From Hufsiella arboris (GTDB taxonomy: Bacteria > Bacteroidota > Bacteroidia > Sphingobacteriales > Sphingobacteriaceae), in NCBI RefSeq assembly GCF_009834875.1, contig NZ_WVHT01000004.1, positions 186,001-250,000 on the forward strand: 64,000 nucleotides of DNA. Reading direction: 5' to 3'. The notes beneath the pieces are model-generated. The model was not told the DNA's origin, searched no databases, and worked only from the letters and a program-made list of their open reading frames with translations. Shown one piece after another: positions 37,530 through 50,888 of this stretch. The position numbers and the translations under genes were made by a program. Within the stretch, counting starts at the first letter, position 1. Each line of letters begins with the position of its first letter.

Positions 37530-37559
37530 TTGATATAAAAGCATTTTTTTCTACCTTTG
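37530..37559 (+). promoter_or_regulatory. pyrR-pyrB promoter
   Basis: TTG (37530-37532), 19 bases, TACCTTTG (37552-37559): perfect consensus. The leader to the pyrR ATG at 37578 is only about 14 bases, too short for a PyrR-type attenuator upstream of pyrR. Confidence 0.8.
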
Positions 37560-37577
37560 CCCAAATCAAAACCACTG

Positions 37578-38120
37578 ATGCAATCACTAACCCTGCTCGA
37601 CGGTCAGAAGTTTCAAATCACCATCCAACGCCTTTGCAGGCAACTTATTGAAAATCACGATAATTTTTCCAATTCGGTAATTTTAGGTATTCAACCGCGC
37701 GGAATTTACCTTTCGCAACGGATTTCTGAAGAGCTGAAAAAGATCTTGCCGGACGCGAATATTTTGAGCGGAATACTTGATATCACGTTTTACCGTGATG
37801 ACTTCAGACGCAAGGAAGGACCGCTCGTTCCAAGCAGCACGGAGATCGATTTTATTATCGAAGGCAAAAAAGTGATTCTGATCGACGATGTATTGTGGAC
37901 AGGCCGAACGATACGGTCAGCTTTAGATGCCATGCTTGCATTCGGGCGGCCCGAAAAAGTCGAAATGCTTGTATTGGTTGACCGTCGGTTTTCCCGTCAG
38001 ATACCTGTTGAAGCCGACTATATCGGGATAGAGGTAGATACGATCAGTTCACAGCGGGTTGTTGTAACCTGGGCAGAAGCAGACCAGAAAGACCAGGTTA
38101 TTTTATTATCAGAAGATTAA
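37578..38120 (+). CDS. pyrR: Bifunctional pyr operon regulator / uracil phosphoribosyltransferase
   Basis: 180 residues from the ATG at 37578; a TTG at 37557 lies inside the promoter box. It is a type I phosphoribosyltransferase: VILIDDVLWTGRTIRSAL is the PRPP loop, and ILGIQPRGIYLSQRI and ITFYRDDFRR are further PyrR blocks (the latter the flexible dimer/RNA-contact region). In Firmicutes PyrR senses UMP and binds attenuators in pyr mRNA; in Bacteroidota its regulatory role is less established. It is followed 21 bases later by pyrB. Confidence 0.93.
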   Translation: MQSLTLLDGQKFQITIQRLCRQLIENHDNFSNSVILGIQPRGIYLSQRISEELKKILPDANILSGILDITFYRDDFRRKEGPLVPSSTEIDFIIEGKKVILIDDVLWTGRTIRSALDAMLAFGRPEKVEMLVLVDRRFSRQIPVEADYIGIEVDTISSQRVVVTWAEADQKDQVILLSED

Positions 38121-38141
38121 CATCCGCGAAAAATTTTAATA

Positions 38142-39080
38142 ATGTCAGAAACCGTTCAAAAACTAAGCACCAGGCATTTATTAGGCATAAAAGACCTGAC
38201 AACCCGCGACATAGAACTTATTTTTGAAACAGCAGACACTTTTAAAGACGTTTTAAACCGGCCAATCAAAAAAGTTCCTTCCCTGCGGGATATAACTATT
38301 GCCAATATATTTTTTGAAAACTCGACACGTACGAGATTGTCTTTTGAGCTTGCCCAAAAACGCTTGTCGGCAGATATTGTGAATTTCGCAGCTTCGTCCT
38401 CATCGGTAAGCAAAGGAGAAACATTGATCGATACGGTGAATAATATTCTCGCCATGAAGGTTGACATGATCGTTATGCGTCATCCTTATCCCGGTGCCGG
38501 AGTGTTTTTGAGCAGGCATGTGAATGCGCAAATTGTAAATGCAGGTGACGGCGCACATGAGCATCCAACACAAGCCTTACTGGATGCTTTCTCGATCAGG
38601 GAAAAATATGGCGATGTGGCCGGCAAAAAAGTGGCGATAATCGGCGATATACTTCACTCACGCGTAGCATTATCCAACATTTTGTGCCTACAGAAACTTG
38701 GAGCGGAAGTAATGGTGTGCGGGCCAACTACACTGATCCCGAAACACATAGGATCGCTCGGCGTGAAGGTTGAGCATGATCTTCTTACTGCTCTTAACTG
38801 GTGCGACGTAGCTAATATGCTGCGGATTCAGCTGGAAAGACAGGATATTAAATATTTCCCTTCTCTTCGTGAATACTCAATGCTATATGGGTTAAATAAA
38901 AGAATCCTTGATTCGCTCGACAAGGAAATCACCGTTATGCATCCCGGCCCGATCAATCGCGGAGTTGAAATAACAAGCGATGTTGCCGACAGTAAGCAGT
39001 CTATTATATTAGACCAGGTAGAAAATGGTGTTGCAATCCGAATGGCCGTTTTATATCTGCTGGCAGGACAGGCAAGTTAA
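38142..39080 (+). CDS. pyrB: Aspartate carbamoyltransferase catalytic chain
   Basis: 312 residues. [12 protein letters not shown] is the carbamoyl-phosphate loop; [25 protein letters not shown] and [12 protein letters not shown] are the substrate-binding blocks. It forms carbamoyl-aspartate, the committed step of pyrimidine synthesis. No pyrI regulatory subunit gene follows, as is usual when pyrR and pyrB are paired. It shares the pyrR promoter. Confidence 0.97.
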
Positions 39081-39209
39081 GCCGATTTTTCAACACTGCA
39101 TACCAATTATTAAATCATTACGTTAAATTCACTGTTTTCAACACCTGTTAATTTCTAATGTTAATTTCGGGCAGTTGTTAATATTAAATTAGCTTTCTCA
39201 GACCAAACT

Positions 39210-42200
39210 ATGTACAAAAAATACATCCGGATAACATTCGTCTTCAGCTTGATAAGTTGTGCTGCTGCTGCTCAATCTACCGCCTGGTATGATATAAATC
39301 AGTACTGCAAAAGTGGAATGGAACTTTATGAAAAAGGGAAATATGCTGCAGCGAGCTATCAGTTTAGTAAAGTTAACGATTATCAGATCGTCGATTTGGA
39401 AAGAGATAAAAATGCTTCATTAATTAAAGAGAATGCGGAATATTACCAGGCTGTTTGTGCGCTTGAACTCTCGAATGAAGATGCAGAAAGCCTTTTTTTA
39501 AAGTATATCAGAAACCATCCGGAAAGCGCTAATACCAAATCCGCTTATTTCCAGGTCGGCAAGTCTTATTTCAATCAGAAAGATTATACCAAGTCGCTTG
39601 AATGGTTCAAAAAGTTAGACATGAACAGTTTGACCGGGGCCGAAAGCCAGGAATATCGTTTCAAACTCGGTTATGACTATTTTGAACTAAAAGACTATAA
39701 CAATGCCGAGCCAATTTTTTCTAAGCTTAAAGAAGAAAAAGGACAATACCAGGAATCCTCAATTTATTACTACGCCTACATCAATTATGCCGATGCAGAT
39801 TATAAAACGGCATTACGTGAATTTGAACGGCTAAAAAACTCTAAGCAATACCAAAGCAGTTATCCGTACTATCTTTCTGCTCTTTATTTTCTTGACAAGC
39901 GATATGACGACGTCTTATCATACACGATTCCTGCGATTCAAACCATCGATGAGCAGTATAAGGGTGAAATGTATCGCATCGTTGCCGCTACTTATTTTGC
40001 TAAAAACGACTATAAAACTGCGTTAGATTATTACCTGAAATTTCAGCAAAAGGATAACGGAAAAACGCAAAATAACCAGGACGATTACCAGATCGGTTAC
40101 ACTTATTTCAAATTAGGGAATAACGAAAACGCAATCAAAGAACTGGAGAAAATGAACTCGCCCGATATTTATTATCAAAACGGAATGATCGTTCTGGGGA
40201 ATGCATTTTTGAAAACGAATAATAAGCAAGGTGCGCGAAACGCTTTCTTCAGGGCTTCAAAACTCACTTTCGACAAAGCTCTTACTGAAGAAGGTTTGTT
40301 CAATTATGCAAAACTCTCTTACGAGCTGGAATTTCATTCAGTCGCACTTGATGCTACGAGACAGTTTATCAAGGCCTATCCGAAATCCAAACGGATTAAC
40401 GAAGCAAAAACGCTTCTTGGCGAGGTTTTGCTAAGTACAAAAAACTACAAAGACGCAGTTGATATACTCGAATCGATAACCAACCGTGATGAAGAAGGCG
40501 ATGCAATCTACCAAAAGGTAACTTATTACCGTGGCCTGGAATTTTACAATGAGCGAGCGTTTGAAAACAGTATTTCGCTGTTTATGCGTTCACAACAGAA
40601 CAAAAGCGACGAAGAAACTTATGCCCTTGCTACTTACTGGCTGGCAGAGGCTATGTTTGAAGTAAGGAAATATGGAGAATCTGTCGCGCAATTTGAAAAG
40701 TTCCTTAGCATTCCTGCAGCCAAGAAAACAGACGTTTACAATTATGCCAATTATGCGTTGGGCTATTCCGCGTTTCAAAATGAAAGCTACTCAAAAGCCG
40801 CTAACTACTTCGCTCGCTTTTTAACTGGCGATGAAAAAGATCAGAATACCATAAATGATGCAGTATTGCGTTTGGGCGATTCATATTTCGTTTTGAAGAG
40901 TTATGACAAAGCAATGCAGGAATATAACAGGATCATCACAAGCGGCGCACAGGGAACGGATTATGCGATGTTTCAGAAAGGAATGATACAGGGATTACAG
41001 GAGCAATACGATGCAAAAATTGCCACCCACCAGGCTTTAATAGATCGGTATCCCAATTCGAACTATGCTGATGACGCCGGCTTTGAAATGGCCTATACGT
41101 ATTTTGTCAAAGGCGATTATGACCGCTCTAAAAACGACCTGACAAACCTAATCGCTAAATATCCGCGAAGCAGTTATGTCCCACGCGCCTTAGTTACAAT
41201 TGGCTTAGTTCAGTACAATCAGAAAGATGATGAAGCAGCCAAGGCGACTTTTGAACGTGTTGTTAAAGATTACTCTACCACAGACGAAGCTAAGCAAGCT
41301 CTTGAATCCGTTAAAAATATTTACCTGGATAAAGGTGATGCAAGTGGATTTTTAGGCTATGCCAATACTACCGGAATTGGAAATCTGAGCACTTACGAAC
41401 AGGACAATATCATGTTCCAGGCGGCGAATAACCTATTTTTGAAAGGAGATTATAACGGCGCATTCCAGGCTGTAAATGCTTACTTTGACAAGTTCCCTAA
41501 AGCGGTAAATGATAAGCAGGCCAAATTTATCAGGGCGGAATCCCTGGTTAAAATTGGTCGCCCGGATGAAGCGATACCAGACTATGCCTATATTTTAAAT
41601 GACTGGACAAGCGACTATACTGAACGTGCTCTGATCAGCATTTCGAACCTGTATCTAAAACAGAAGAAATATAACGAAGCGGTGGTCTATCTTAAAAAGC
41701 TGGAAACCACATCGGAATACAAATCCCATTATGGTTATGCGATTAACAACCTGATCGATTCATACAGCAATATGGGTATGGCAGATGATGTTCTGAAATA
41801 CGCCACCCTGATCAAAGCTTTCGAAAAATCATCGGAAGATGATAAAAATCGCGCAACGCTTTATGCCGGCAAGGCATACCTGATGAAAGAGGATACCACA
41901 AGCGCCTACAAGCAATTCGAAAGCGTTGTTGCGAAAACCCAGAATATTTCCGCAGCAGAAGCGAAATATAACATCGCGAATATTCAATACTCCCGCGGCG
42001 AATATAAAGCATCTCAAAAAACCGCCTTTGAGCTGATCAACAAAATGCCGTCGTTCGATTACTGGGTAGCTAAAAGCTTCATTTTACTTGCGGATAATTA
42101 TATCGCCCTGAAAGATGATTTCCAGGCAAAGAGTACTCTTCAAAGTGTCATAGAAAATTATAAGGGTGATGACGATGTGTTACCGACGGCAAAAGCAAGG

Positions 42201-42227
42201 TTGGGAACAATTAGTGATAAAAAATAG
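39210..42227 (+). CDS. Large exported TPR protein of an ExbBD/TonB-linked cluster
   Basis: 1005 residues. A signal peptide ends near residue 21 (SCAAAAQ). The remainder is about twenty TPR/Sel1-like helical repeats, for example AYFQVGKSYFNQKDYTKSLEWFKKL, AKTLLGEVLLSTKNYKDAVDIL and DAGFEMAYTYFVKGDYDRSKNDL. No lipobox, so it should be soluble in the periplasm or on the inner face of the outer membrane. It starts a block of six genes with very small gaps. The next gene, a beta-barrel protein, begins 3 bases after its stop, suggesting that the two act together. The exact function is not known to me. Confidence 0.82.
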   Translation: MYKKYIRITFVFSLISCAAAAQSTAWYDINQYCKSGMELYEKGKYAAASYQFSKVNDYQIVDLERDKNASLIKENAEYYQAVCALELSNEDAESLFLKYIRNHPESANTKSAYFQVGKSYFNQKDYTKSLEWFKKLDMNSLTGAESQEYRFKLGYDYFELKDYNNAEPIFSKLKEEKGQYQESSIYYYAYINYADADYKTALREFERLKNSKQYQSSYPYYLSALYFLDKRYDDVLSYTIPAIQTIDEQYKGEMYRIVAATYFAKNDYKTALDYYLKFQQKDNGKTQNNQDDYQIGYTYFKLGNNENAIKELEKMNSPDIYYQNGMIVLGNAFLKTNNKQGARNAFFRASKLTFDKALTEEGLFNYAKLSYELEFHSVALDATRQFIKAYPKSKRINEAKTLLGEVLLSTKNYKDAVDILESITNRDEEGDAIYQKVTYYRGLEFYNERAFENSISLFMRSQQNKSDEETYALATYWLAEAMFEVRKYGESVAQFEKFLSIPAAKKTDVYNYANYALGYSAFQNESYSKAANYFARFLTGDEKDQNTINDAVLRLGDSYFVLKSYDKAMQEYNRIITSGAQGTDYAMFQKGMIQGLQEQYDAKIATHQALIDRYPNSNYADDAGFEMAYTYFVKGDYDRSKNDLTNLIAKYPRSSYVPRALVTIGLVQYNQKDDEAAKATFERVVKDYSTTDEAKQALESVKNIYLDKGDASGFLGYANTTGIGNLSTYEQDNIMFQAANNLFLKGDYNGAFQAVNAYFDKFPKAVNDKQAKFIRAESLVKIGRPDEAIPDYAYILNDWTSDYTERALISISNLYLKQKKYNEAVVYLKKLETTSEYKSHYGYAINNLIDSYSNMGMADDVLKYATLIKAFEKSSEDDKNRATLYAGKAYLMKEDTTSAYKQFESVVAKTQNISAAEAKYNIANIQYSRGEYKASQKTAFELINKMPSFDYWVAKSFILLADNYIALKDDFQAKSTLQSVIENYKGDDDVLPTAKARLGTISDKK

Positions 42228-42230
42228 AAC

Positions 42231-43976
42231 ATGAGATTCAACTATTTTATTTTAAGTATAGCATTAACTGTTGCGGCAGGTTCCGGAGCATTTGCTCAGA
42301 AAAAACCTGCGGACAAAAAGCCGGCAGACAAAACTGCCAAACCAGCCGATAAAACAACAAAGCCCGCTGAAAAAACAACGCCGGCAACAACCGACAAAAA
42401 ACAGGATGCTGCCAGCAATGCCGTAGCCGAAGAAATTGAGGTTGTAAGGCCGTACAAACCGGTGCTTGCGGATGTTTCTAAAATCAGGCGTTCGCCCGAA
42501 ATGGATCTGAACAAAACGTTCAAACCGCAGCTAAATTACTCTATCAGCGATAAAAGGCTGGAACAAAACAGCGATATCAGGCAATTACAATCTCAGCCAC
42601 TGGCAGAGATTATTCAACCAGAATTAACAAATAACTATGTTAAAATCGGGCTTGGTAACCTTGCAACCGGCTTTGGAGAAGTTTATGTAAACACCGGGAA
42701 GGATGAAGCTTTACAGGGCGGCGTATTTTTCAAGCATTTTAACCAAAAAGGTGATATTGACGGGCAAAAAGTTTCGCGGCAGCAATTCGGAATTTTTGGA
42801 AGAAGCATCCAGGATAAATTTGCGGTCAACGGAGATCTGACTTATCATCGGTTTGCGACAAACTTTTATGGGTTCATACCGGAACAACCGGCACCGACGA
42901 CAGATATCGAAAAGCAAACCTACAACTTGATCGAATTAAACGGCGATATCGGCAATAACTTCAATCAGGATGATCAAGCCGTAGAATATAAAGTGAAGGC
43001 AAACGCCTATTATCTGAATAACAAAACGGATCAGAAAGAAACTTCTTTCAAACTGGACGGGTATGTAAACAAGGCGATCAACCAGTTTAACGTTGGCGCT
43101 AATCTGGTGGGCGACTTCACCAATATCAATCAGCCGTTATTTAATACCAGCAACAATATTTTCAGGCTGAAACCTTACGTAAAGTTTCAGGGAACTAACT
43201 ATATGCTGAAGATCGGCTTGAATTTCGCGAGTGAATTTGGTGATTCAACCAGTACCAACTTTCTACCTGACGTAACCGCGGAATTCGCCCTCGCACCTGA
43301 ATACGCAACCATATTCGCGGGATACACCGGAGATGTCATTAAAACCTCGTTACGAAATACTGCGACTGAAAACCCTTACATCAATCAAAATATCGCTATT
43401 GTAAACGCGCTGGAAAAAAGCAATATTTTTGGCGGGATAAAGGGTAACGCCGGTGCCGGATTTGGGTATAAAGCAATGGTTTCCTATCGCACCATTGAAA
43501 ACATGCCCCTCTTTATCAATGATAGCCAGTCACCTAATAAATTCGACCTGACTTACGATTCAAAAGCAAAGGTATTCAGCCTGGAAGGTGAAATCAGCTT
43601 AAAGGCGTCGGAAGCAATACTTTGGACGGGTCGCTTTATAACATCGAATTATGATGTTTCGCAACAACGGGAAGCATGGTTTAAACCAACGCTTCAGTTA
43701 GTCTCAAATGTTCGGGCTAACATCAACAAAGCATTTTCTGTTGATGGAGAAGTAGTGATAAACGGAGGATCAAAGGCCTTTGTTCCGGCAAATCCTGATC
43801 AGATATTGACGCTTGACAGCTATGTCGATCTGAGCGGCGGCGCAGAATACCGTCTTAAAAATAACATTGGTATTTATCTGAGGGTAAACAATATCCTTAA
43901 TTCACAATACGAACGATACCTGTATTATCCAAAAGTAGGAATCAATTTCCTTGGAGGTTTAAACTATTCGTTCTGA
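42231..43976 (+). CDS. Outer-membrane beta-barrel protein (TonB-dependent-receptor-like)
   Basis: 581 residues. A signal peptide ends near residue 22 (SGAFAQ). Residues ~23-60 are a low-complexity (K)PADK repeat, probably a flexible periplasmic linker. A conserved block follows (EEIEVVRPYKPVLADVSKIR). The rest alternates amphipathic strands and ends in GGLNYSF, with the terminal Phe typical of outer-membrane barrels; the last ~100 residues (DLSGGAEYRLKNNIGIYLRVNNILN) resemble the C-terminus of TonB-dependent receptors. No complete plug domain was seen. It lies between the TPR gene and the HU/SPOR gene of the cluster. Confidence 0.75.
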   Translation: MRFNYFILSIALTVAAGSGAFAQKKPADKKPADKTAKPADKTTKPAEKTTPATTDKKQDAASNAVAEEIEVVRPYKPVLADVSKIRRSPEMDLNKTFKPQLNYSISDKRLEQNSDIRQLQSQPLAEIIQPELTNNYVKIGLGNLATGFGEVYVNTGKDEALQGGVFFKHFNQKGDIDGQKVSRQQFGIFGRSIQDKFAVNGDLTYHRFATNFYGFIPEQPAPTTDIEKQTYNLIELNGDIGNNFNQDDQAVEYKVKANAYYLNNKTDQKETSFKLDGYVNKAINQFNVGANLVGDFTNINQPLFNTSNNIFRLKPYVKFQGTNYMLKIGLNFASEFGDSTSTNFLPDVTAEFALAPEYATIFAGYTGDVIKTSLRNTATENPYINQNIAIVNALEKSNIFGGIKGNAGAGFGYKAMVSYRTIENMPLFINDSQSPNKFDLTYDSKAKVFSLEGEISLKASEAILWTGRFITSNYDVSQQREAWFKPTLQLVSNVRANINKAFSVDGEVVINGGSKAFVPANPDQILTLDSYVDLSGGAEYRLKNNIGIYLRVNNILNSQYERYLYYPKVGINFLGGLNYSF

Positions 43977-44019
43977 TCGTTAATTTTGCCGGCTTAAAAA
44001 TATAACTAACTTTACCCGG

Positions 44020-45117
44020 ATGGATATTGGGCAATACATAACAGAACTTCTGAACGACCATGATGTGGTCGGCGTGCCCGGTTTTGGAAGTTTTTTCAAA
44101 ACAAATTCACCGTCTTATTTTGATCCGGAAACAAACACGTTTTTTCCTGGCCACCAGCATATAGGCTTCCGAGATGAGGTAGAAAATGATGCTGTACTTG
44201 TCGATCATATAGTCAGCAGCAGAAATATATCCGAAAATTCTGCACGTTATTTCGCAACAAATTTCGGTGGCGAAATTAACCGCAAACTGAACGAAACGGG
44301 AGTTGCCGATGCCGGCAGCCTTGGCCGGTTTACAAGAAACGATGAGCGCTTTCAATTCAAGCCGGCTTATTTTGATTCCGATGAGGCAAATTTCGGTCTG
44401 CAGCCAGTTGAAGATCTTGTTAAGTTAGTTTCTGCAGCGGCCGAAACAAAACCATATAGCGGAGCCGCCGTAAATCTTAACAGTCCCGCTCCTGCTATTA
44501 AGCAGCCTCTGGTTGCCCATGAGCCAGCTGTTCCGGACCTGGCGGAAGCGATATCTGAAGACGAAACGAATGAGCCAGACGAAGTACTTTCAAGGCGCAG
44601 CAATAAGTGGATTATCATTCTAACCACATTGGTGGTAATAGCGGCAGCAGCGGCTGTTATTCAGTATTACTATCCGCAAATTAATAGTTATTTTAACCAC
44701 TTGGACAAGCCGAAGCCGGCTCCGAAAATATCGCCTGCACCTAAACAGGCGACGGAATCTGATTCTCTTTCGTTTGCCGACAGCGTGATGGCGAATGCAA
44801 AAAAAGCCGATTTACAGGTAGAAAAAGCAAGAGACACAGCCGAAATTTCTGTTAAAACAAAAACATTGCCGAATCCTGCGTCCAGAACAACAGTGGAAAT
44901 CATCGGAGCAGCATTAGCAAATCAGAAGGATGCCGATAGTTATGTTAAGAATTTACGTTCGGCGGGTTTTGATGCACGCGTGGTTAAAAGAACTAAAAAA
45001 TGGATATTAGTTAGTTTGGGATCTTTTAAAGATAGGAGCTCGGCAGAGAAGGAACTTCCACGATTTAAGAAAATACAACCCGGTGCTTACCTCAAAGAAT
45101 TGAAAATAACACAATAA
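44020..45117 (+). CDS. HU-CCDC81 and SPOR-domain membrane protein
   Basis: 365 residues. The N-terminus (residues ~1-125) matches the bacterial HU-CCDC81 pair (MDIGQYITELLNDHDVVGVPGFGSF; ISENSARYFATNFGGEINRKL). One membrane helix lies at about 196-215 (WIIILTTLVVIAAAAAVIQY). A proline/alanine linker and a C-terminal SPOR domain follow (about 290-365: EIIGAALANQKDADSYVKNLRSAGFDARVV). SPOR domains bind denuded peptidoglycan at division sites; the HU-like part would face the cytoplasm. In Bacteroidota this architecture is often found beside exbB/exbD, as here. exbB starts one base after its stop. Confidence 0.88.
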   Translation: MDIGQYITELLNDHDVVGVPGFGSFFKTNSPSYFDPETNTFFPGHQHIGFRDEVENDAVLVDHIVSSRNISENSARYFATNFGGEINRKLNETGVADAGSLGRFTRNDERFQFKPAYFDSDEANFGLQPVEDLVKLVSAAAETKPYSGAAVNLNSPAPAIKQPLVAHEPAVPDLAEAISEDETNEPDEVLSRRSNKWIIILTTLVVIAAAAAVIQYYYPQINSYFNHLDKPKPAPKISPAPKQATESDSLSFADSVMANAKKADLQVEKARDTAEISVKTKTLPNPASRTTVEIIGAALANQKDADSYVKNLRSAGFDARVVKRTKKWILVSLGSFKDRSSAEKELPRFKKIQPGAYLKELKITQ

Positions 45118-45118
45118 T

Positions 45119-45820
45119 ATGCTTTTATTACAAATTGATACACCCTCAGCGATACCTGTGGACACTGCCAAAGCTGCAACCGAAGCTGTTCAGCAGGTTC
45201 AGGATTTACGTTTTATCGACCTACTATTTAAAGGTGGCTGGGTAATGCTTCCTTTAGCACTTATCGCTTTTCTTGGATTGGTTATTTTCATAGAACGTTA
45301 TATTACCATCCGGAAAGCTTCAAAAGACGAGACGAACCTAATTTTCCAGGTACGCCAAAGTATTTTATCCGGCAAATTAGATTCGGCAATCGCGCTGTGC
45401 CGGAATAGTAATACTCCATTGGGCCGCATGCTGCAGAAAGGTTTATTACGGATCGGGCGTCCTATCAAAGACATTGAAGCGGCTATTGAAAATGTTGGCA
45501 AACTGGAAGTCTCCAAGCTTGAAAAAAATATTAATATCCTTGGAATCATTGCCGGTATTGCTCCCATGCTCGGCTTCGTGGGAACAATTATTGGTGTAAT
45601 CACCATCTTCCACGATGTTTCCATGAAGGGAATTATTGAAATCGGAACTGTATCCGGAGGTTTATATACCAAAATGATCACTTCTGCAACTGGTTTGATT
45701 ATCGGTATCACGGCTTATGTTTTGTATCATATCCTTAACATGATGGTTGAAAAAATCATCCTGAAAATGGAAACCGACGCTATCGAATTTATAGATTTGT
45801 TAGAAGAACCAGGGAAATGA
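45119..45820 (+). CDS. MotA/TolQ/ExbB-family proton channel protein
   Basis: 233 residues with three membrane helices (about 38-58, 135-155 and 185-205). LLFKGGWVMLPLALIAFLGLVIFIERY is helix 1, and the GIIAGIAPMLGFVGTIIGVITIFHDV block is the conserved ExbB/TolQ signature lining the pore. It forms a proton channel with ExbD that energises a TonB- or TolA-like protein. Its last four bases overlap the exbD start (ATGA). Confidence 0.92.
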   Translation: MLLLQIDTPSAIPVDTAKAATEAVQQVQDLRFIDLLFKGGWVMLPLALIAFLGLVIFIERYITIRKASKDETNLIFQVRQSILSGKLDSAIALCRNSNTPLGRMLQKGLLRIGRPIKDIEAAIENVGKLEVSKLEKNINILGIIAGIAPMLGFVGTIIGVITIFHDVSMKGIIEIGTVSGGLYTKMITSATGLIIGITAYVLYHILNMMVEKIILKMETDAIEFIDLLEEPGK

Positions 45821-46215
45821 ATTTAAGGAAAAGGAAAAAGGCGAATGTAGAGGTTCATACGTCGGCATTGAACGATATCATGTTCTTTTTGCTGCTGTTT
45901 TTTCTTTTGGCGTCTGCTGTAGTAAACCCTAATGTGGTGAAGTTATTTCTGCCGCGATCAAGCTCAGGACAATCTGTGCCAAAGAAAACCATTAATGTAT
46001 CGATCACCAAGGACTTGGAGTATTATGTAGAAAAGGAGAAAGTACCTTTCGATCAGCTTGAACAAAAAATCCAGGTATATCAGCAAACATCTCCGGATCT
46101 GACAATCATCCTTTTTGCAGATCGCAGCATCGCCATCGAAAATGTTGTTAACCTGACAGATATCGCCAACAAGTTGAAAGTTAAACTTGTTTTAGCTACA
46201 GAGAATAAGAAATGA
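45817..46215 (+). CDS. ExbD/TolR-family protein
   Basis: 132 residues. One N-terminal helix contains the functional aspartate in TSALNDIMFFLLLFFLLAS (Asp20), followed by a periplasmic domain (TINVSITKDLEYYVEKEKV). It is the ExbD partner in the proton channel. It overlaps exbB upstream and the TonB-like gene downstream by four bases each, which suggests translational coupling. Confidence 0.93.
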   Translation: MNLRKRKKANVEVHTSALNDIMFFLLLFFLLASAVVNPNVVKLFLPRSSSGQSVPKKTINVSITKDLEYYVEKEKVPFDQLEQKIQVYQQTSPDLTIILFADRSIAIENVVNLTDIANKLKVKLVLATENKK

Positions 46216-47045
46216 TGACCGCGCATCAGAAATATGGTGAGAACAATTATCCAAAAGCCGTTGCAATTTCAACCGGCATTATGGTTGTATTTTTATTGTT
46301 GAGCTATTTTTTGATAGTGAATCGCGCCGCTCCATTGGAAGAGGTTGGAACCGGTGGCATTATCGTGAATTACGGAACGGCCGACGAAGGTATGGGAACC
46401 GACTACATGAGTGTAGAACAGCCTTCAATGGATCCAAACGCGAATGGAAAAGCACCGGATAAAGTTGTTCCGAATACTGATCCTCAGCCAACCCCGACAA
46501 CTGAGAATAACGATAAAGACATTGTAACCCAAAACACCGAAGACGCACCTGAGATCAACACGAAAGAGTCAAAACCAGCTAACAATGTGTCGGCGGTAAA
46601 ACTTCCTGAAAAGGATAAAGCGCCAACGATAAACCCCAATGCTTTATATAAAGGAAGCAAAAATAATGCTTCGGGCCAGGGCGATGGAACAGGAAGTAAA
46701 CCGGGTAACCAGGGAAGCGAGAATGGGGATCCTTTATCACCGGATTATGGCGAAGGCGGCTCAGGAAACGGCGGGGTGGCGTTGGATTTAAAAAGCCGGA
46801 GATTTGTAGATATTCCGCATATCGATGACAACGGCCAGGCTTCAGGAATCATTGCAGTCGATATTCGTGTGGACAAATCGGGAACAATAATTTATGCGCG
46901 TGCTGGCGCAAGGGGCACAACTATTTCCGATCTGAGTTTATGGCGTAAATGCGAACAAGCGGTAACCGGCGCAAGACTTAATCAACTTGAATCAGCTCCT
47001 GAAGTACAAGTTGGCGTTGTTAAATTCAGATTCAAAGTAAAATAA
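46212..47045 (+). CDS. TonB-like energy transducer
   Basis: 277 residues (a second ATG follows the first directly). One membrane helix at about residues 18-38 (ISTGIMVVFLLLSYFLIVN), then a long linker rich in Pro, Asn, Asp, Thr and Gly, and a C-terminal domain (GIIAVDIRVDKSGTIIYARA...FRFKVK) of TonB-C type. The linker has an unusual PNANGKAPDK / GSGNGGV composition rather than the classic Pro-Lys repeats. With ExbB and ExbD it should transmit proton-motive energy to an outer-membrane partner, plausibly the barrel encoded at 42231-43976. Confidence 0.85.
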   Translation: MMTAHQKYGENNYPKAVAISTGIMVVFLLLSYFLIVNRAAPLEEVGTGGIIVNYGTADEGMGTDYMSVEQPSMDPNANGKAPDKVVPNTDPQPTPTTENNDKDIVTQNTEDAPEINTKESKPANNVSAVKLPEKDKAPTINPNALYKGSKNNASGQGDGTGSKPGNQGSENGDPLSPDYGEGGSGNGGVALDLKSRRFVDIPHIDDNGQASGIIAVDIRVDKSGTIIYARAGARGTTISDLSLWRKCEQAVTGARLNQLESAPEVQVGVVKFRFKVK

Positions 47046-47063
47046 ATCTGCCTTTCAGTTTCA

Positions 47064-48347
47064 ATGAATTACCAAGAAACGATCGATTTCCTGTATGCCC
47101 GTTTACCTATGTTTACCCGCGTTGGAGCTGCTGCGATAAAAAAGGGGCTAGATAATACTCTGGCGTTTTGCAAATCACTCGACGACCCGCAAAATAAGTT
47201 CAGATCTGTTCATGTTGGAGGCACTAACGGCAAGGGTTCCACTTCGCATATGCTCGCCGCGATATTACAAACGGCCGGTTATAAAACAGGCTTGTATACC
47301 TCTCCTCACCTGAAAGATTTCCGCGAACGAATACGAATAAATGGTGAAATGATCCAGCAAAATGAAGTGGTGGATTTCGTTGAAAAGAGCCTCTCAACTA
47401 TCGAATCTATCGAGCCTTCATTTTTTGAAGTAACCGTCGCCTTGGCATTTGATCATTTTGCAAAGCACCAGGTTGACATCGCAATTATAGAGGTTGGCCT
47501 GGGCGGCCGATTGGATTCAACTAATGTAATCACTCCTCTCCTTTCTGTGATTACCAATATCGGTTACGATCACATGAATTTGCTAGGAAACACCTTAGCG
47601 GAGATCGCTTCGGAAAAGGCCGGAATTATAAAACCGGGTGTTCCTGTAGTTATCGGAGAAAACCGTAAGGACCTTATTAGCTTATTTCAGGCGAAGGCAA
47701 AAGAAACCTCCTCAGATATCGTTATAACGGCAAATGAACGGCAAATGGACGGCAAATGGACGGCAAATGAGTACGGCGACATTGTTTTAGAAACTTCGAC
47801 AAGCGACGGTCAGTCGTTTACGATGGATCTGAGTGGCAGCTATCAGCTCAATAACTTGTCAACTGTTTTGAGTTCGGTAGATCAGCTGAGAAAATTTGGA
47901 TTTGATATTACAACTGATCACCTGAAAAAAGCACTTTCAAACGTTAAGGAACTAACAGGCCTGGCCGGAAGATGGCAGACGCTGCAAAAGCATCCGCTCA
48001 TTATCTGTGACACCGGACACAATGAAGACGGGATTCGGGAAGTAGTAAAAAACATTCAGGCGGTTCCATACCACAAACTCCACATGGTAATTGGTATGGT
48101 GAAGGACAAGGATATATCTAAAGTATTGACATTACTTCCGAAAGATGCCATTTATTATTTCTGCCAACCGCAGCTTGAACGGGCGAAACCAGCAATTGAG
48201 CTAGCTGATGAAGCGCGAAATTTCGGTTTAACTGGTGATGCTTTTCCAACCGTTTCTGAAGCATTAAATGCCGCGAAACAAGAAGCCTTGGCAGAGGATT
48301 TGATTTTTATTGGCGGAAGCACTTTTGTAGTGGCAGAAATAGTGTAG
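47064..48347 (+). CDS. folC: Folylpolyglutamate synthase / dihydrofolate synthase
   Basis: 427 residues, Mur-ligase fold. HVGGTNGKGSTSHML is the ATP loop, GLYTSPHLKDFRERI the folate-binding region, IEVGLGGRLDSTN and YDHMNLLGNTLAEIASEKAGIIKPG further conserved blocks, and DTGHNEDGI the C-terminal domain motif. It adds glutamate to dihydropteroate and folates. It starts 18 bases after the TonB-like gene. Between about residues 222 and 235 the protein reads TANERQMDGKWTANE, produced by four copies of an 11-bp repeat (47727-47770). Confidence 0.95.
   Translation: MNYQETIDFLYARLPMFTRVGAAAIKKGLDNTLAFCKSLDDPQNKFRSVHVGGTNGKGSTSHMLAAILQTAGYKTGLYTSPHLKDFRERIRINGEMIQQNEVVDFVEKSLSTIESIEPSFFEVTVALAFDHFAKHQVDIAIIEVGLGGRLDSTNVITPLLSVITNIGYDHMNLLGNTLAEIASEKAGIIKPGVPVVIGENRKDLISLFQAKAKETSSDIVITANERQMDGKWTANEYGDIVLETSTSDGQSFTMDLSGSYQLNNLSTVLSSVDQLRKFGFDITTDHLKKALSNVKELTGLAGRWQTLQKHPLIICDTGHNEDGIREVVKNIQAVPYHKLHMVIGMVKDKDISKVLTLLPKDAIYYFCQPQLERAKPAIELADEARNFGLTGDAFPTVSEALNAAKQEALAEDLIFIGGSTFVVAEIV
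47727..47770 (+). repeat. 11-bp tandem repeat, four copies, inside folC
   Basis: Units ACGGCAAATG(A/G) at 47727, 47738, 47749 and 47760. Eleven is not a multiple of three, so successive units are read in three different frames and the fourth returns to the first frame (TANE ... TANE). Confidence 0.95.
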
Positions 48348-48481: not shown

Positions 48482-49564
48482 TTACACCTTCGGTTCCTGC
48501 TGGCTTAAGCAATGGAAACTTCCCAAACCCCATATGATGTCTGTCGAATCGAGGCCAACAACCTTGCGCGAAGAAAAGCAGGATTGAATAATATCTAAAG
48601 CCTTGTCATCGTGCTTGCTTCTGTAGGTCGGAACAATAACATGTTTGTTGCTGATGTAGAAATTAGCGTAAGATGCAGGCAAACGCGTATCCTCATAAAT
48701 TACAGCATCCGGCATTGGCAGCTCGATAATATTTAACTGCTTACCATTTAAAAGACGCATTTCCTTTAAGGCTTTCAGATTTTGCTGAAGAAGTTCATAA
48801 TTCTCGTCGCTTTTGTTTTCCTCGACAACTGTTAGTACCGTGTCTTCATTCACGAAACGAATGGTGTCGTCAATATGGCCATCAGTGTCATCGCCAATGA
48901 TGCCTTCATCGACCCAAAGAACTTGTTTGATTCCGTAATAATTTTCCAGGTACTCTTCAATCTGTTTTTGATTGAGATGCGGATTGCGGTTTTCATTTAA
49001 CAGGCAACAGGTGGATGTTAACACGGTACCCGCACCGTTAAACTCAACTGATCCGCCCTCCATAATAATGCCCGGGTGATATACCGGAATGTTAAATTGA
49101 TTACCGATTCTTGTAGGAATAACGTCGTCGAGATCAAACGGGGGATATTTACCGCCCCATGCATTGAAACCCCAGTCGACGATGACCTTTTTTCGAGCAG
49201 CCTTAGGATTTATTAAAAATGCCGGCCCATGATCCCTGCACCAGGCATCGTTTGTCGGGTTCAAATAAAATTCAACCTGCGACATATCAGCGCCAGCTTT
49301 GACGAGATGTGAAATTGCCTGCTGCCGCAACAACTCATCGGCGACATTAATCCGTACCTTCTCTCCTTCCGTGAGTATTTTTACGAACTCGCTGTAAACA
49401 GGATATATCGATTCAATTTTGCCCGGCCAGCTCGCTTCCTTATGCGGCCAGCTCAACCAGGTTGCTTCATGTTCGGCCCATTCGGGCGGGAAGGTGTAGC
49501 CGAGGGAGGCGGGGAAAGAGTCAGCAAAGTCCGGAAGACCGGAAGTCGAAAAGTCGGATTTCAT
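48482..49564 (-). CDS. aguA: Agmatine deiminase (PAD-like family)
   Basis: 360 residues. PPEWAEHEATWLSWPHKEASWPG is the usual start; NDAWCRDHGPAF, GGKYPPFDLDD, MEGGSVEFNGAG, GDDTDGHIDD and the C-terminal GLGSFHCLSQQEP with nucleophile Cys352 are the catalytic blocks. It hydrolyses agmatine to N-carbamoylputrescine and ammonia. The gene for the next step is 452 bases away on the same strand, separated by a four-helix-bundle gene. Porphyromonas-type peptidylarginine deiminase is excluded by length and the absence of a signal peptide. Confidence 0.9.
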   Translation of the reverse strand: MKSDFSTSGLPDFADSFPASLGYTFPPEWAEHEATWLSWPHKEASWPGKIESIYPVYSEFVKILTEGEKVRINVADELLRQQAISHLVKAGADMSQVEFYLNPTNDAWCRDHGPAFLINPKAARKKVIVDWGFNAWGGKYPPFDLDDVIPTRIGNQFNIPVYHPGIIMEGGSVEFNGAGTVLTSTCCLLNENRNPHLNQKQIEEYLENYYGIKQVLWVDEGIIGDDTDGHIDDTIRFVNEDTVLTVVEENKSDENYELLQQNLKALKEMRLLNGKQLNIIELPMPDAVIYEDTRLPASYANFYISNKHVIVPTYRSKHDDKALDIIQSCFSSRKVVGLDSTDIIWGLGSFHCLSQQEPKV

Positions 49565-49566
49565 AG

Positions 49567-49920
49567 TTAACTTAAAGATTTTTTCAAAGCGTTAATCATC
49601 ACTAAAATCTCTTCACAGTTGTTGTAAAGAGTTAGGAAATGATCATGTTCTATATAATTTCGTCTTTTGGCGAGATGCAAACAGCCAACAACTTCAATGT
49701 TCGACCGTAGCGCATAGCCTAAAAACCTTTTAAATTCAGCGTTGGACTGGCCGGTGGAACCTTCAGCTATATTTAAAGAAACCGAATCCGCAGCCCGTTT
49801 AATTTGTGATGTCAGAATGAATATTTCATTTTTTGGAAAGCCTTTGGTTAGCCGATCGATATGGTCAGAAAGATCAACGGCCTTCTGCCATACTTTTAAG
49901 TTTTCGAATTTGAATGCCAT
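49567..49920 (-). CDS. Four-helix-bundle protein (23S rRNA IVP family)
   Basis: 117 residues. FENLKVWQKAVDLSDHIDRLTKGFPKNE, SQIKRAADSVSLNIAEGS and LGYALRSNIEVVGCLHLAKRR are the standard blocks of this family, known as the S23 protein encoded in rRNA intervening sequences and as free genes in Bacteroidota. The function is unknown; a role in nucleic-acid binding has been proposed for homologues linked to diversity-generating retroelements. Here it interrupts an otherwise direct aguB-aguA pair and lies two bases from aguA. Confidence 0.88.
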   Translation of the reverse strand: MAFKFENLKVWQKAVDLSDHIDRLTKGFPKNEIFILTSQIKRAADSVSLNIAEGSTGQSNAEFKRFLGYALRSNIEVVGCLHLAKRRNYIEHDHFLTLYNNCEEILVMINALKKSLS

Positions 49921-50015
49921 GAATAAGGTTTAGATTAAGAAATCTAAATTTAAGCACTTACAACTAAAACGCCATCACTTTCGGTCTTTCCGTCTTAAAA
50001 ACTTCCCGACTTCAC

Positions 50016-50888
50016 TTACTCCTCATCAATATACCTCTTCGTAATCTGCTGATAAGAGTCAATCCTACGATCGCGCATAAAGGGCCAGTGAGTACGATAG
50101 CTGTCGGTTTTGCCCAGATCAATCTCCATAACTTTAACTTCTTCGTCCTCATGAGATGCCTGGTAAAGCACGGAACCGAATGGATTCGCAACAAATGATC
50201 CGCCCCAAAAACGAATTCCTGCTTCTGAGCCAACCCGGTTTACGCTCACCACATGAACTCCGTTTGCAACCGCGTGGCTCCGCTGAATAGTTTGCCATGC
50301 GTTGTATTGTTCAGTGTTCGTAGGGAGATCCTGCGTATGAGCCCAACCAATTGCAGTTGGATAAAATAAGATCTCAGCGCCCATTAAGGATGTAATGCGC
50401 GCGGCTTCCGGATACCATTGATCCCAGCAAATCAATACGCCTATTGTAGCGAACTTCGTTTTGAAAACTTTATATCCCAGATCGCCGGGCGTAAAATAAA
50501 ACTTCTCGTAAAATCCCGGATCGTCAGGAATGTGCATTTTCCGGTACTTGCCAAGGTAAGACCCATCAGCATCCAGAACCGCAGTAGTATTATGATAAAT
50601 TCCCTGTGTACGTTTTTCAAATAAGGAAGCGATAATCACAACGTTCAATTCTCCGGCAATTTTGCTTAACGCATCTGTTGAAGGACCTGGAATTGCTTCT
50701 GCTAAAGAGAAGTTATCGTAGTTTTCCTCGTCACAAAAATACAGGGAAGTAAACAGCTCCTGAAGGCAGACGATCTGTGCTCCTTTTGCCGCTGCTTCTT
50801 TAACCTTTTCAATCGCCTTGGATAAGTTTTGCTCCTTATCTGCAGTGCAGCTCATCTGAACAAGCCCTACTTTAACGTTTTTTGCCAT
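50016..50888 (-). CDS. aguB: N-carbamoylputrescine amidase
   Basis: 290 residues, nitrilase superfamily. The catalytic triad is Glu44 (CLQELF), Lys117 (LGKYRKMHIPD) and Cys154 (VLICWDQWYPEA). Further family blocks are PTAIGWAH and FWGGSFVANPFG. It converts N-carbamoylputrescine to putrescine, CO2 and ammonia. With the agmatine deiminase on the same strand it completes the agmatine-to-putrescine route. No arginine decarboxylase is in the window. Confidence 0.93.
   Translation of the reverse strand: MAKNVKVGLVQMSCTADKEQNLSKAIEKVKEAAAKGAQIVCLQELFTSLYFCDEENYDNFSLAEAIPGPSTDALSKIAGELNVVIIASLFEKRTQGIYHNTTAVLDADGSYLGKYRKMHIPDDPGFYEKFYFTPGDLGYKVFKTKFATIGVLICWDQWYPEAARITSLMGAEILFYPTAIGWAHTQDLPTNTEQYNAWQTIQRSHAVANGVHVVSVNRVGSEAGIRFWGGSFVANPFGSVLYQASHEDEEVKVMEIDLGKTDSYRTHWPFMRDRRIDSYQQITKRYIDEE

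Follow-up and report, generated by a model that had tools for sequence, protein, structure and literature searches.

A cluster of six genes in Hufsiella arboris (Bacteroidota; Sphingobacteriaceae) is proposed here to encode a third force transducer of the ExbBD-TonB type in Bacteroidota, Tol-like in role, that would pull on a plugless outer-membrane barrel instead of on Pal. We hold this view tentatively and rate it somewhat short of probable; contacts, force, septal site and role are inferred from the parts themselves, their folds, conservation and linkage, and the clade that their ExbB proteins form. The cluster occupies positions 39210-47045 of the window, by which we mean the whole stretch of DNA analysed (64,000 nucleotides; contig NZ_WVHT01000004.1, positions 186,001 to 250,000 of the forward strand), and its six open reading frames (ORFs) all lie on the + strand in the ORF list of the window. 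A first-pass annotation, made from the letters alone, had named a tetratricopeptide-repeat (TPR) protein of 1005 aa, a barrel of 581 aa, an HU-CCDC81/SPOR protein of 365 aa, ExbB, ExbD and a TonB-like protein, with coordinates and lengths that agree with the ORF list. It had seen in them an ExbBD/TonB module with its own barrel lacking a complete plug, a TPR scaffold and an HU/SPOR protein, which domains, models and linkage bear out; its overall interpretation, a proton-driven machine linking cytoplasm, wall and outer membrane, is partly supported. The features of the locus are as follows (TM, transmembrane helix).

39210..42227, +, TPR protein, 1005 aa, with signal peptide, no lipobox seen and CpoB/YbgF-like repeats (TIGR02795, 206.2 bits)
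42231..43976, +, predicted plugless receptor-type barrel protein, 581 aa (fold model and structure matches)
42429..42461, +, TonB-box-like element, residues 67-77 of the barrel protein, in its disordered tail (alignment, N-termini of 83 relatives, pattern counts)
42636..43973, +, modelled barrel domain, residues 136-581, about 22 strands (model; FhuA match)
44020..45117, +, HU/SPOR protein, 365 aa: HU-1 3-55, weak HU-2 60-117, TM 194-212, SPOR 297-358 (Pfam and hydropathy)
45119..45820, +, ExbB-type motor protein, 233 aa, three hydrophobic helices (PF01618, hydropathy, own clade)
45817..46215, +, ExbD/TolR-type protein, 132 aa, one TM (PF02472, hydropathy)
46212..47045, +, TonB-like arm, 277 aa: TM 13-38, disordered linker, C-terminal domain ~194-277 (model, fold match)
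47064..48347, +, FolC-like gene of the Mur-ligase family, a conserved neighbour (PF02875, PF08245)

In the proposed model, the ExbB-ExbD motor, proton-driven as is known for its family, would move the TonB-like arm, whose C-terminal domain may grasp the TonB-box-like tail of the barrel. The barrel having lost its plug, no gate would be opened and each stroke would pull the outer membrane itself. The large TPR protein would serve the barrel as its partner in the periplasm and may, in the manner of CpoB, tie the pull to wall synthesis. Through the SPOR domain the inner-membrane side would reach stripped peptidoglycan where the cell divides; the HU pair would lie in the cytoplasm. The module would thereby fill the role of Tol-Pal, the outer membrane being drawn in at constriction, and, working alongside the ordinary Ton system, would act in the mechanics of the envelope and not in the uptake of nutrients.

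Neither the barrel protein nor the TonB-like protein of the window matched a Pfam family at E<=0.1; the identities of both rest on fold models and relatives. A model built from a 22-sequence alignment (mean pLDDT 75.4, pTM 0.69) contains about 22 long strands at residues 136-580, with ten-residue blocks mostly above 80 (DSSP elements, counted by eye), preceded by a disordered stretch at residues 19-132 with pLDDT below 50. Foldseek matched it among solved structures to the TonB-dependent receptors FpvA and BtuB. In a second structure comparison, by VIA-align, 433 residues aligned with FhuA (Z 21.9, 3.4 Å) and receptors filled 50 of the 50 rows listed, which leaves room for other folds. No plug family was found at E<=0.05 in the 22 barrel sequences, that is, the window's and 21 relatives. 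Because of the disordered N-terminal stretch, the receptor matches and the missing plug family, the modelled protein is taken as a barrel of the TonB-dependent-receptor type without a plug, in agreement with the earlier claim of a receptor-like barrel lacking a complete plug. A conserved element of its N-terminal tail reads EEIEVVRPYKP in the window and LPEFVITG, LPEVIVTG or LPDFVITG at the equivalent place in deep relatives, which we take to resemble TonB boxes. A strict TonB-box-like pattern, drawn up after the sequences had been viewed, occurred in 9 of 84 tails where shuffled sequences gave 0.02, and a loose one, likewise post hoc and descriptive, in 69 of 84 where they gave 32.5. A barrel search of the contigs of named relatives gave 5 loci.

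The model of the TonB-like protein (mean pLDDT 58.3) consists of a TM helix at residues 13-38, a disordered linker and a C-terminal domain, the end domain reaching a pLDDT of ~82-93. This domain aligned with TonB C-terminal domains over 76 residues (Z 8.5, 2.1 Å) and with TolA III over 84 (Z 7.1, 3.0 Å); the TonB and TolA folds are related, and as modelled the domain appears somewhat nearer to TonB than to TolA III. PF03544 was found in 5 of 13 relatives, the window's protein not among them. A similar plan was recognized by eye in the profile-negative ORF after ExbD at eight loci (L104, L107, L108, L118, L120, L122, L124 and L131; the prefixes L, G and f denote loci, genomes and families of our survey). 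The ORFs listed at L052, L053, L098, L114, L115, L123, L125, L128 and L129 are not TonB-like, and none is listed at the arm position of L099, L113, L116 and L117; at these loci the arm is therefore elsewhere or missing.

ExbB and ExbD were recognized by MotA_ExbB (PF01618, 76.9 bits) and ExbD (PF02472, 85.5 bits). In a tree of 67 proteins, 42 of 42 module ExbBs, linked or unlinked, lie on one side of a 96/83 branch; these rows are 41 chosen module loci and the window, same-gene repeats and further relatives having been left out. A further branch (99/97) sets off TolQ (E. coli and five f17 genomes) and 13 ordinary Bacteroidota ExbBs, and E. coli ExbB sits on a long branch with uncertain placement among TolQ. 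Judged by its sequence, the module ExbB is a clade of its own, apart from TolQ and ordinary ExbB; the tree is midpoint-rooted, so that closeness to Tol or Ton is unreadable from it. Four other ExbB-family rows fall on the module's side, three of them with two ExbD genes. The latter (L178 in f12, L180 in f37 and L190 in f23) represent another clade of ExbB, with a pair of ExbD genes behind it. Among NCBIfam models the best for the window's ExbB was tolQ with 63.9 bits (cut-off 221), the ExbB model giving 41.7, both far below cut-off; 14 of the 14 members of A2 match both TolQ-type and ExbB-type models. The window's genome encodes two MotA_ExbB proteins, the module's own and one followed by two ExbD genes, the ordinary Ton arrangement of Bacteroidota.

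How widely are these parts kept together? We surveyed 296 genomes of the phylum. PF18174 was abandoned as a module marker, being present in only 64 of the 296 (beyond certain families this Pfam model has little power), and profiles of the barrel, ExbB and TPR protein were used in its place. The TPR profile matched 206 of 296 genomes at E<=1e-40. The barrel profile matched 253 of 296 at E<=1e-3 and 151 at E<1e-19; of the 43 genomes without a match 20 were listed as such and 23 are counted by absence from the list. The ExbB profile matched 296 of 296 at E<=1e-20, other ExbB-family proteins also matching, and 170 at E<1e-49. In what follows "barrel" stands for E<1e-19 and "ExbB" for E<1e-49, cut on the printed exponent; exponents and coordinates were transcribed by hand for the counts. 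The TPR protein is present in 151 of 151 barrel-positive genomes. TPR and ExbB occur together in 169 genomes, TPR without ExbB in 37 (14 families), ExbB alone in 1 and neither in 89. Of the 73 genomes sampled from the window's class, 72 carry all three of TPR, barrel and ExbB. The recurrence of the combination in Bacteroidota, asserted in the earlier reading, is supported. The remaining genome, G269 (f2, one contig, 3.3 Mb), has none of the three and no full-length TolB, and offers a natural case for looking at what replaces the module.

Two genes were counted as adjacent when their starts lay no more than 12 kb apart on the same contig, with contig ends left uncorrected (f41 is affected by them); the count covers the genomes with best places listed (150 for the barrel, 150 for ExbB, 149 for TPR). 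The barrel adjoins TPR in 95 of 126 genomes (23 of 26 families) and ExbB in 78 of 129 (18 of 27 families), TPR adjoins ExbB in 51 of 133 (15 of 27 families), and the barrel adjoins both in 37 of 118. In the window's family it adjoins both in 8 of 8 genomes, and one or the other in most further families, and for this reason we regard the clustering as beyond chance. Three families (f21, f23 and f42) keep the barrel beside ExbB but away from TPR. At 83 barrel loci TPR lies directly upstream in 70, and downstream on the same strand follow HU/SPOR (58), ExbB (44), ExbD (44), a TonB-like gene detected by profile (25) and FolC (15); the loci were fetched around HU or barrel matches and the counts lean toward HU neighbours. 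According to the first-pass annotation, relatives with the ExbBD/TonB genes separated from the TPR and barrel genes would speak against a module. Such separation exists in part: in eight Bacteroidia families (f2-f7, f10 and f11) the barrel stays with TPR (genome G053 of f4 excepted) and ExbB is apart, adjacent in 0 of 50 genomes. Nevertheless, the separated ExbBs in the tree share the module's clade and the three parts still co-occur in 72 of 73 genomes of the class. Among 20 separated-ExbB loci (L132-L151), ExbB, ExbD, TonB and FolC stand together in six (L133, L138-L141 and L151). Since linkage is seen in several classes and the ExbB split in Bacteroidia families, the data suggest that the complete cluster is ancestral and that its order is old but not fixed. 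Six further loci (L109-L112, L121 and L130, in f19, f22, f24, f26, f32 and f48) hold TPR-barrel pairs, some with HU/SPOR, with no adjacent ExbB of the module clade. A TPR-barrel-HU/SPOR cluster was also met on a contig of a metagenome-assembled genome labelled Azovibrio restrictus (L005), with the same lengths as in a Bacteroides metagenome-assembled genome (L004); it is probably a mis-binned Bacteroidota contig.

The TPR protein, in which Pfam recognizes TPR repeats, found its best NCBIfam model in tol_pal_ybgF (TIGR02795), with 206.2 bits against a cut-off of 90.1, in 8 stretches of the repeat protein; the CpoB model NF008068 gave 51.1 against 383. Its relatives' N-termini resemble ordinary signal peptides, with a loose lipobox in 3 of 66, and on sequence grounds it appears to be a secreted, CpoB-like protein. 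A link to the type IX secretion system was considered and set aside, the PorW/SprE model reaching 54.4 bits against a cut-off of 250. A genome of the window's family carries a second paralogue of 875 aa (G002:C1:1170328-1172604, E 9.7e-214). In the HU/SPOR protein, HU-CCDC81_bac_1 scored 43.6 bits (cut-off 26), HU-CCDC81_bac_2 27.4, below its cut-off of 35, and the SPOR domain 43.3 (cut-off 21). SPOR domains are periplasmic and bind at the septum. The single TM at residues 194-212 would put HU and SPOR on opposite sides of the membrane and hence, SPOR being periplasmic, HU in the cytoplasm; the SPOR domain of the earlier reading is upheld, and its internal HU part follows, conditionally, from the helix and the periplasmic SPOR. 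By a crude hydropathy measure, 60 of 83 HU/SPOR profile matches longer than 200 aa (near-duplicates counted) have exactly one helix. In other classes a small gene of ~64-93 aa often encodes the first HU domain by itself, directly ahead of a gene for HU2-TM-SPOR. In Bacteroidia loci the two are joined in a single protein, and their fusion speaks for a common function.

The distribution of Tol-Pal bears on the role. Because PF04052 proved too weak a marker for TolB (10 of its 19 genomes are in f17, although f17 has 64), a TolB profile was built from ten f17 TolBs and E. coli TolB, and it favours f17 and E. coli. Full-length TolB (>=590 bits) was found in 63 of 296 genomes, all in f17 (63 of 64); the next match, at 173 bits, is partial. 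None of these 63 has the TPR protein, the barrel or the module ExbB (63 of 63; one has a barrel match at E<1e-9). At the TolB_N loci of f17, TolR, TolA, TolB and a Pal-like gene lie in a row within a reach of 2-3 kb, as judged by eye; TolQ precedes TolR at L166-L170, and G010 (L152) has an extra ORF between TolA and TolB. Since tol-pal is described as clustered in Chlorobi in PMC8871954, f17 is probably Chlorobi. In the window's genome no TolB was detected by PF04052 at E<=1e-3 or by the TolB profile at E<=1e-30. Membership of the module in Tol-Pal by sequence is rejected on the basis of the ExbB tree and the TolB searches at these cut-offs.

Several observations lead us to a Tol-like transducer: i) the receptor-type barrel without a plug, its TonB-box-like tail, the TonB-like fold of the arm and the separate ExbB clade; ii) the co-occurrence and adjacency of TPR, barrel and ExbB, with tol_pal_ybgF and (far under its cut-off) tolQ as best models; and iii) the absence of the module from 63 of 63 TolB genomes, together with the finding of a 2025 study that Bacteroidetes have no tol-pal loci (PMC12204202). 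A mechanical use appears simplest because the barrel lacks the plug that an import force would open, and the Tol role is suggested by the CpoB-like TPR protein, the SPOR domain, near-universality in the class and absence from one clear Tol-Pal family (f17). Other findings weigh against this reading. The TolB contrast concerns one family, hence one evolutionary event and not 63, and 27 genomes have neither TPR nor TolB. PF04052 matches nine genomes outside f17, eight of them TPR-positive (four of the nine are in f29, where L156 opens, by eye, like a protein kinase), and also the control Bacteroides ihuae. PMC8871954 describes Tol-Pal as almost complete in Bacteroidetes by hidden Markov models, at odds with PMC12204202. 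The TPR model scores are inflated by repeats. The 37 TPR-only genomes either count against an obligatory set or use another ExbB. Finally, the window's genome has 14 further OmpA-domain places, Pal and others unsorted, so that other tethers exist.

What else could the cluster be? One possibility, which we consider unlikely, is an energised exporter, in which the plugless barrel is an open pore, the TPR solenoid a periplasmic scaffold and the arm a gate for the release of a polymer or protein. Polysaccharide secretion does pair a TPR scaffold with an outer-membrane pore (AlgK/AlgE, BcsC, PgaA), no other pair is kept as widely as TPR and barrel (95 of 126 genomes, 23 of 26 families), and TPR also occurs in 37 genomes without the module ExbB; however, a Pfam scan of nine genes at the window's locus (37557-48347) found no glycosyltransferase or other synthase, the barrel is of receptor type, near-universality in the class fits housekeeping better, and SPOR and HU are left unexplained. 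This last objection applies equally to an outer-membrane assembly factor, with a BamD-like TPR protein and a barrel that the inner membrane would drive as a pore for assembly or for handling lipids. The BamD model TIGR03302 does exceed its cut-off in the TPR protein (103.6 bits against 81.4), but repeats inflate such scores, YbgF scores twice BamD, and no assembly-type family was among the Pfam matches of the barrel and its 21 relatives; we regard this explanation as very improbable. A stronger form of the Tol-like proposal, that the module is the Bacteroidota's own replacement of Tol-Pal, with the motor pulling the TonB-box tail of the barrel, SPOR targeting it to the septum and cytoplasmic HU linking nucleoid position to constriction, seems to us unlikely.

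An auxiliary Ton system, with ExbB, ExbD and the TonB-like protein energising ordinary TonB-dependent receptors and TPR, barrel and HU/SPOR as neighbours with another job, is likewise an improbable account. The fold of the arm is slightly ahead for TonB over TolA, and ExbB is unlinked from the barrel in the eight Bacteroidia families. As described in PMC4446302, the Riemerella anatipestifer operon encodes ExbB of 24 kDa, ExbD of 14.7 kDa and TonB1 of 30.6 kDa, sizes matched by f3 locus L138 (226, 132 and 280 aa), and may thus be this module's motor, although FolC is not the downstream gene there. The same study reports that this operon adds to hemin uptake jointly with tonB2, that hemin transport is abolished when tonB1 and tonB2 are both gone and that the TonB1 complex energises a hemin receptor in E. 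coli, the strongest published hint at a Ton-like capability, and a further point against a purely mechanical role. Against an auxiliary Ton system, the identity of that operon is deduced from sizes, deletion of tonB1 alone left hemin uptake and iron-depleted growth unaffected (PMC4446302), and ExbB-barrel linkage in 78 of 129 genomes and 18 of 27 families, with co-occurrence, is hard to explain for unrelated genes.

Compared with known systems, the proposed transducer shares with Tol-Pal a single cluster that encodes a TolQ/ExbB-family motor, an ExbD/TolR-family protein, an arm crossing the membrane once and ending in a domain of the related TonB and TolA folds, and a TPR protein that appears similar to CpoB/YbgF. 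It differs in that the window's genome lacks TolB at the cut-offs given above, the cluster lacks Pal (no OmpA-like protein was found by Pfam in the nine scanned genes), the likely outer partner is a plugless barrel, ExbB falls outside the TolQ rows and the TPR protein is much larger (1005 aa). With the Ton system it has in common ExbB, ExbD, a TonB-type end domain and a receptor-type barrel with a TonB-box-like tail, whereas its barrel has no plug, its ExbB lies outside the clade of the 13 ordinary Bacteroidota ExbBs and it is linked to TPR and HU/SPOR genes. PorE, proposed in PMC12204202 as a CpoB-TolB-Pal fusion of Bacteroidetes that would tether the outer membrane where Tol-Pal is lacking, is a single, motorless lipoprotein, in contrast to the module, in which motor, arm and outer-membrane barrel are encoded side by side; PorE and the module could cooperate. 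The HU-CCDC81/SPOR proteins of Bacteroidetes (PF18174, PF18175, PF05036) share the HU-1 and SPOR families, both above cut-off, the module's gene differing in its place between barrel and ExbB. In the titles and abstract openings listed by searches of one open-licence library we found no description of the cluster as a unit; the part families are known, and no system joining them to a plugless outer partner of receptor type was found described there. If correct, the proposal would explain what the large TPR protein and the plugless barrel, kept by most of the sampled phylum, are for. It provides a concrete candidate, with its own motor, for how Bacteroidota draw in and hold the outer membrane without Tol-Pal, and predicts a new mode of force transfer, a pull on a barrel no longer plugged.

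With regard to its limits, the gaps within the six-gene set measure 3, 43, 1, -4 and -4 bases. Of the spacing of -4 to about 130 given by the first-pass annotation, the range from -4 to 43 holds inside the set; the value near 130 is the 129 bases between the end of PyrB and the start of the TPR gene, outside it. The six ORFs stand, but the extent was drawn one gene short, the FolC-like gene starting 18 bases 3' of the TonB-like gene; with FolC so close and PyrB 129 bases before, the transcription unit may exceed six genes. FolC adjoins the module or its ExbBD-TonB half in several families, and is probably not a working part of it. Further on, the minus strand of the window carries, at 48482-50888, ORFs that resemble, by eye from their translations, agmatine deiminase, a four-helix-bundle protein and N-carbamoylputrescine amidase.

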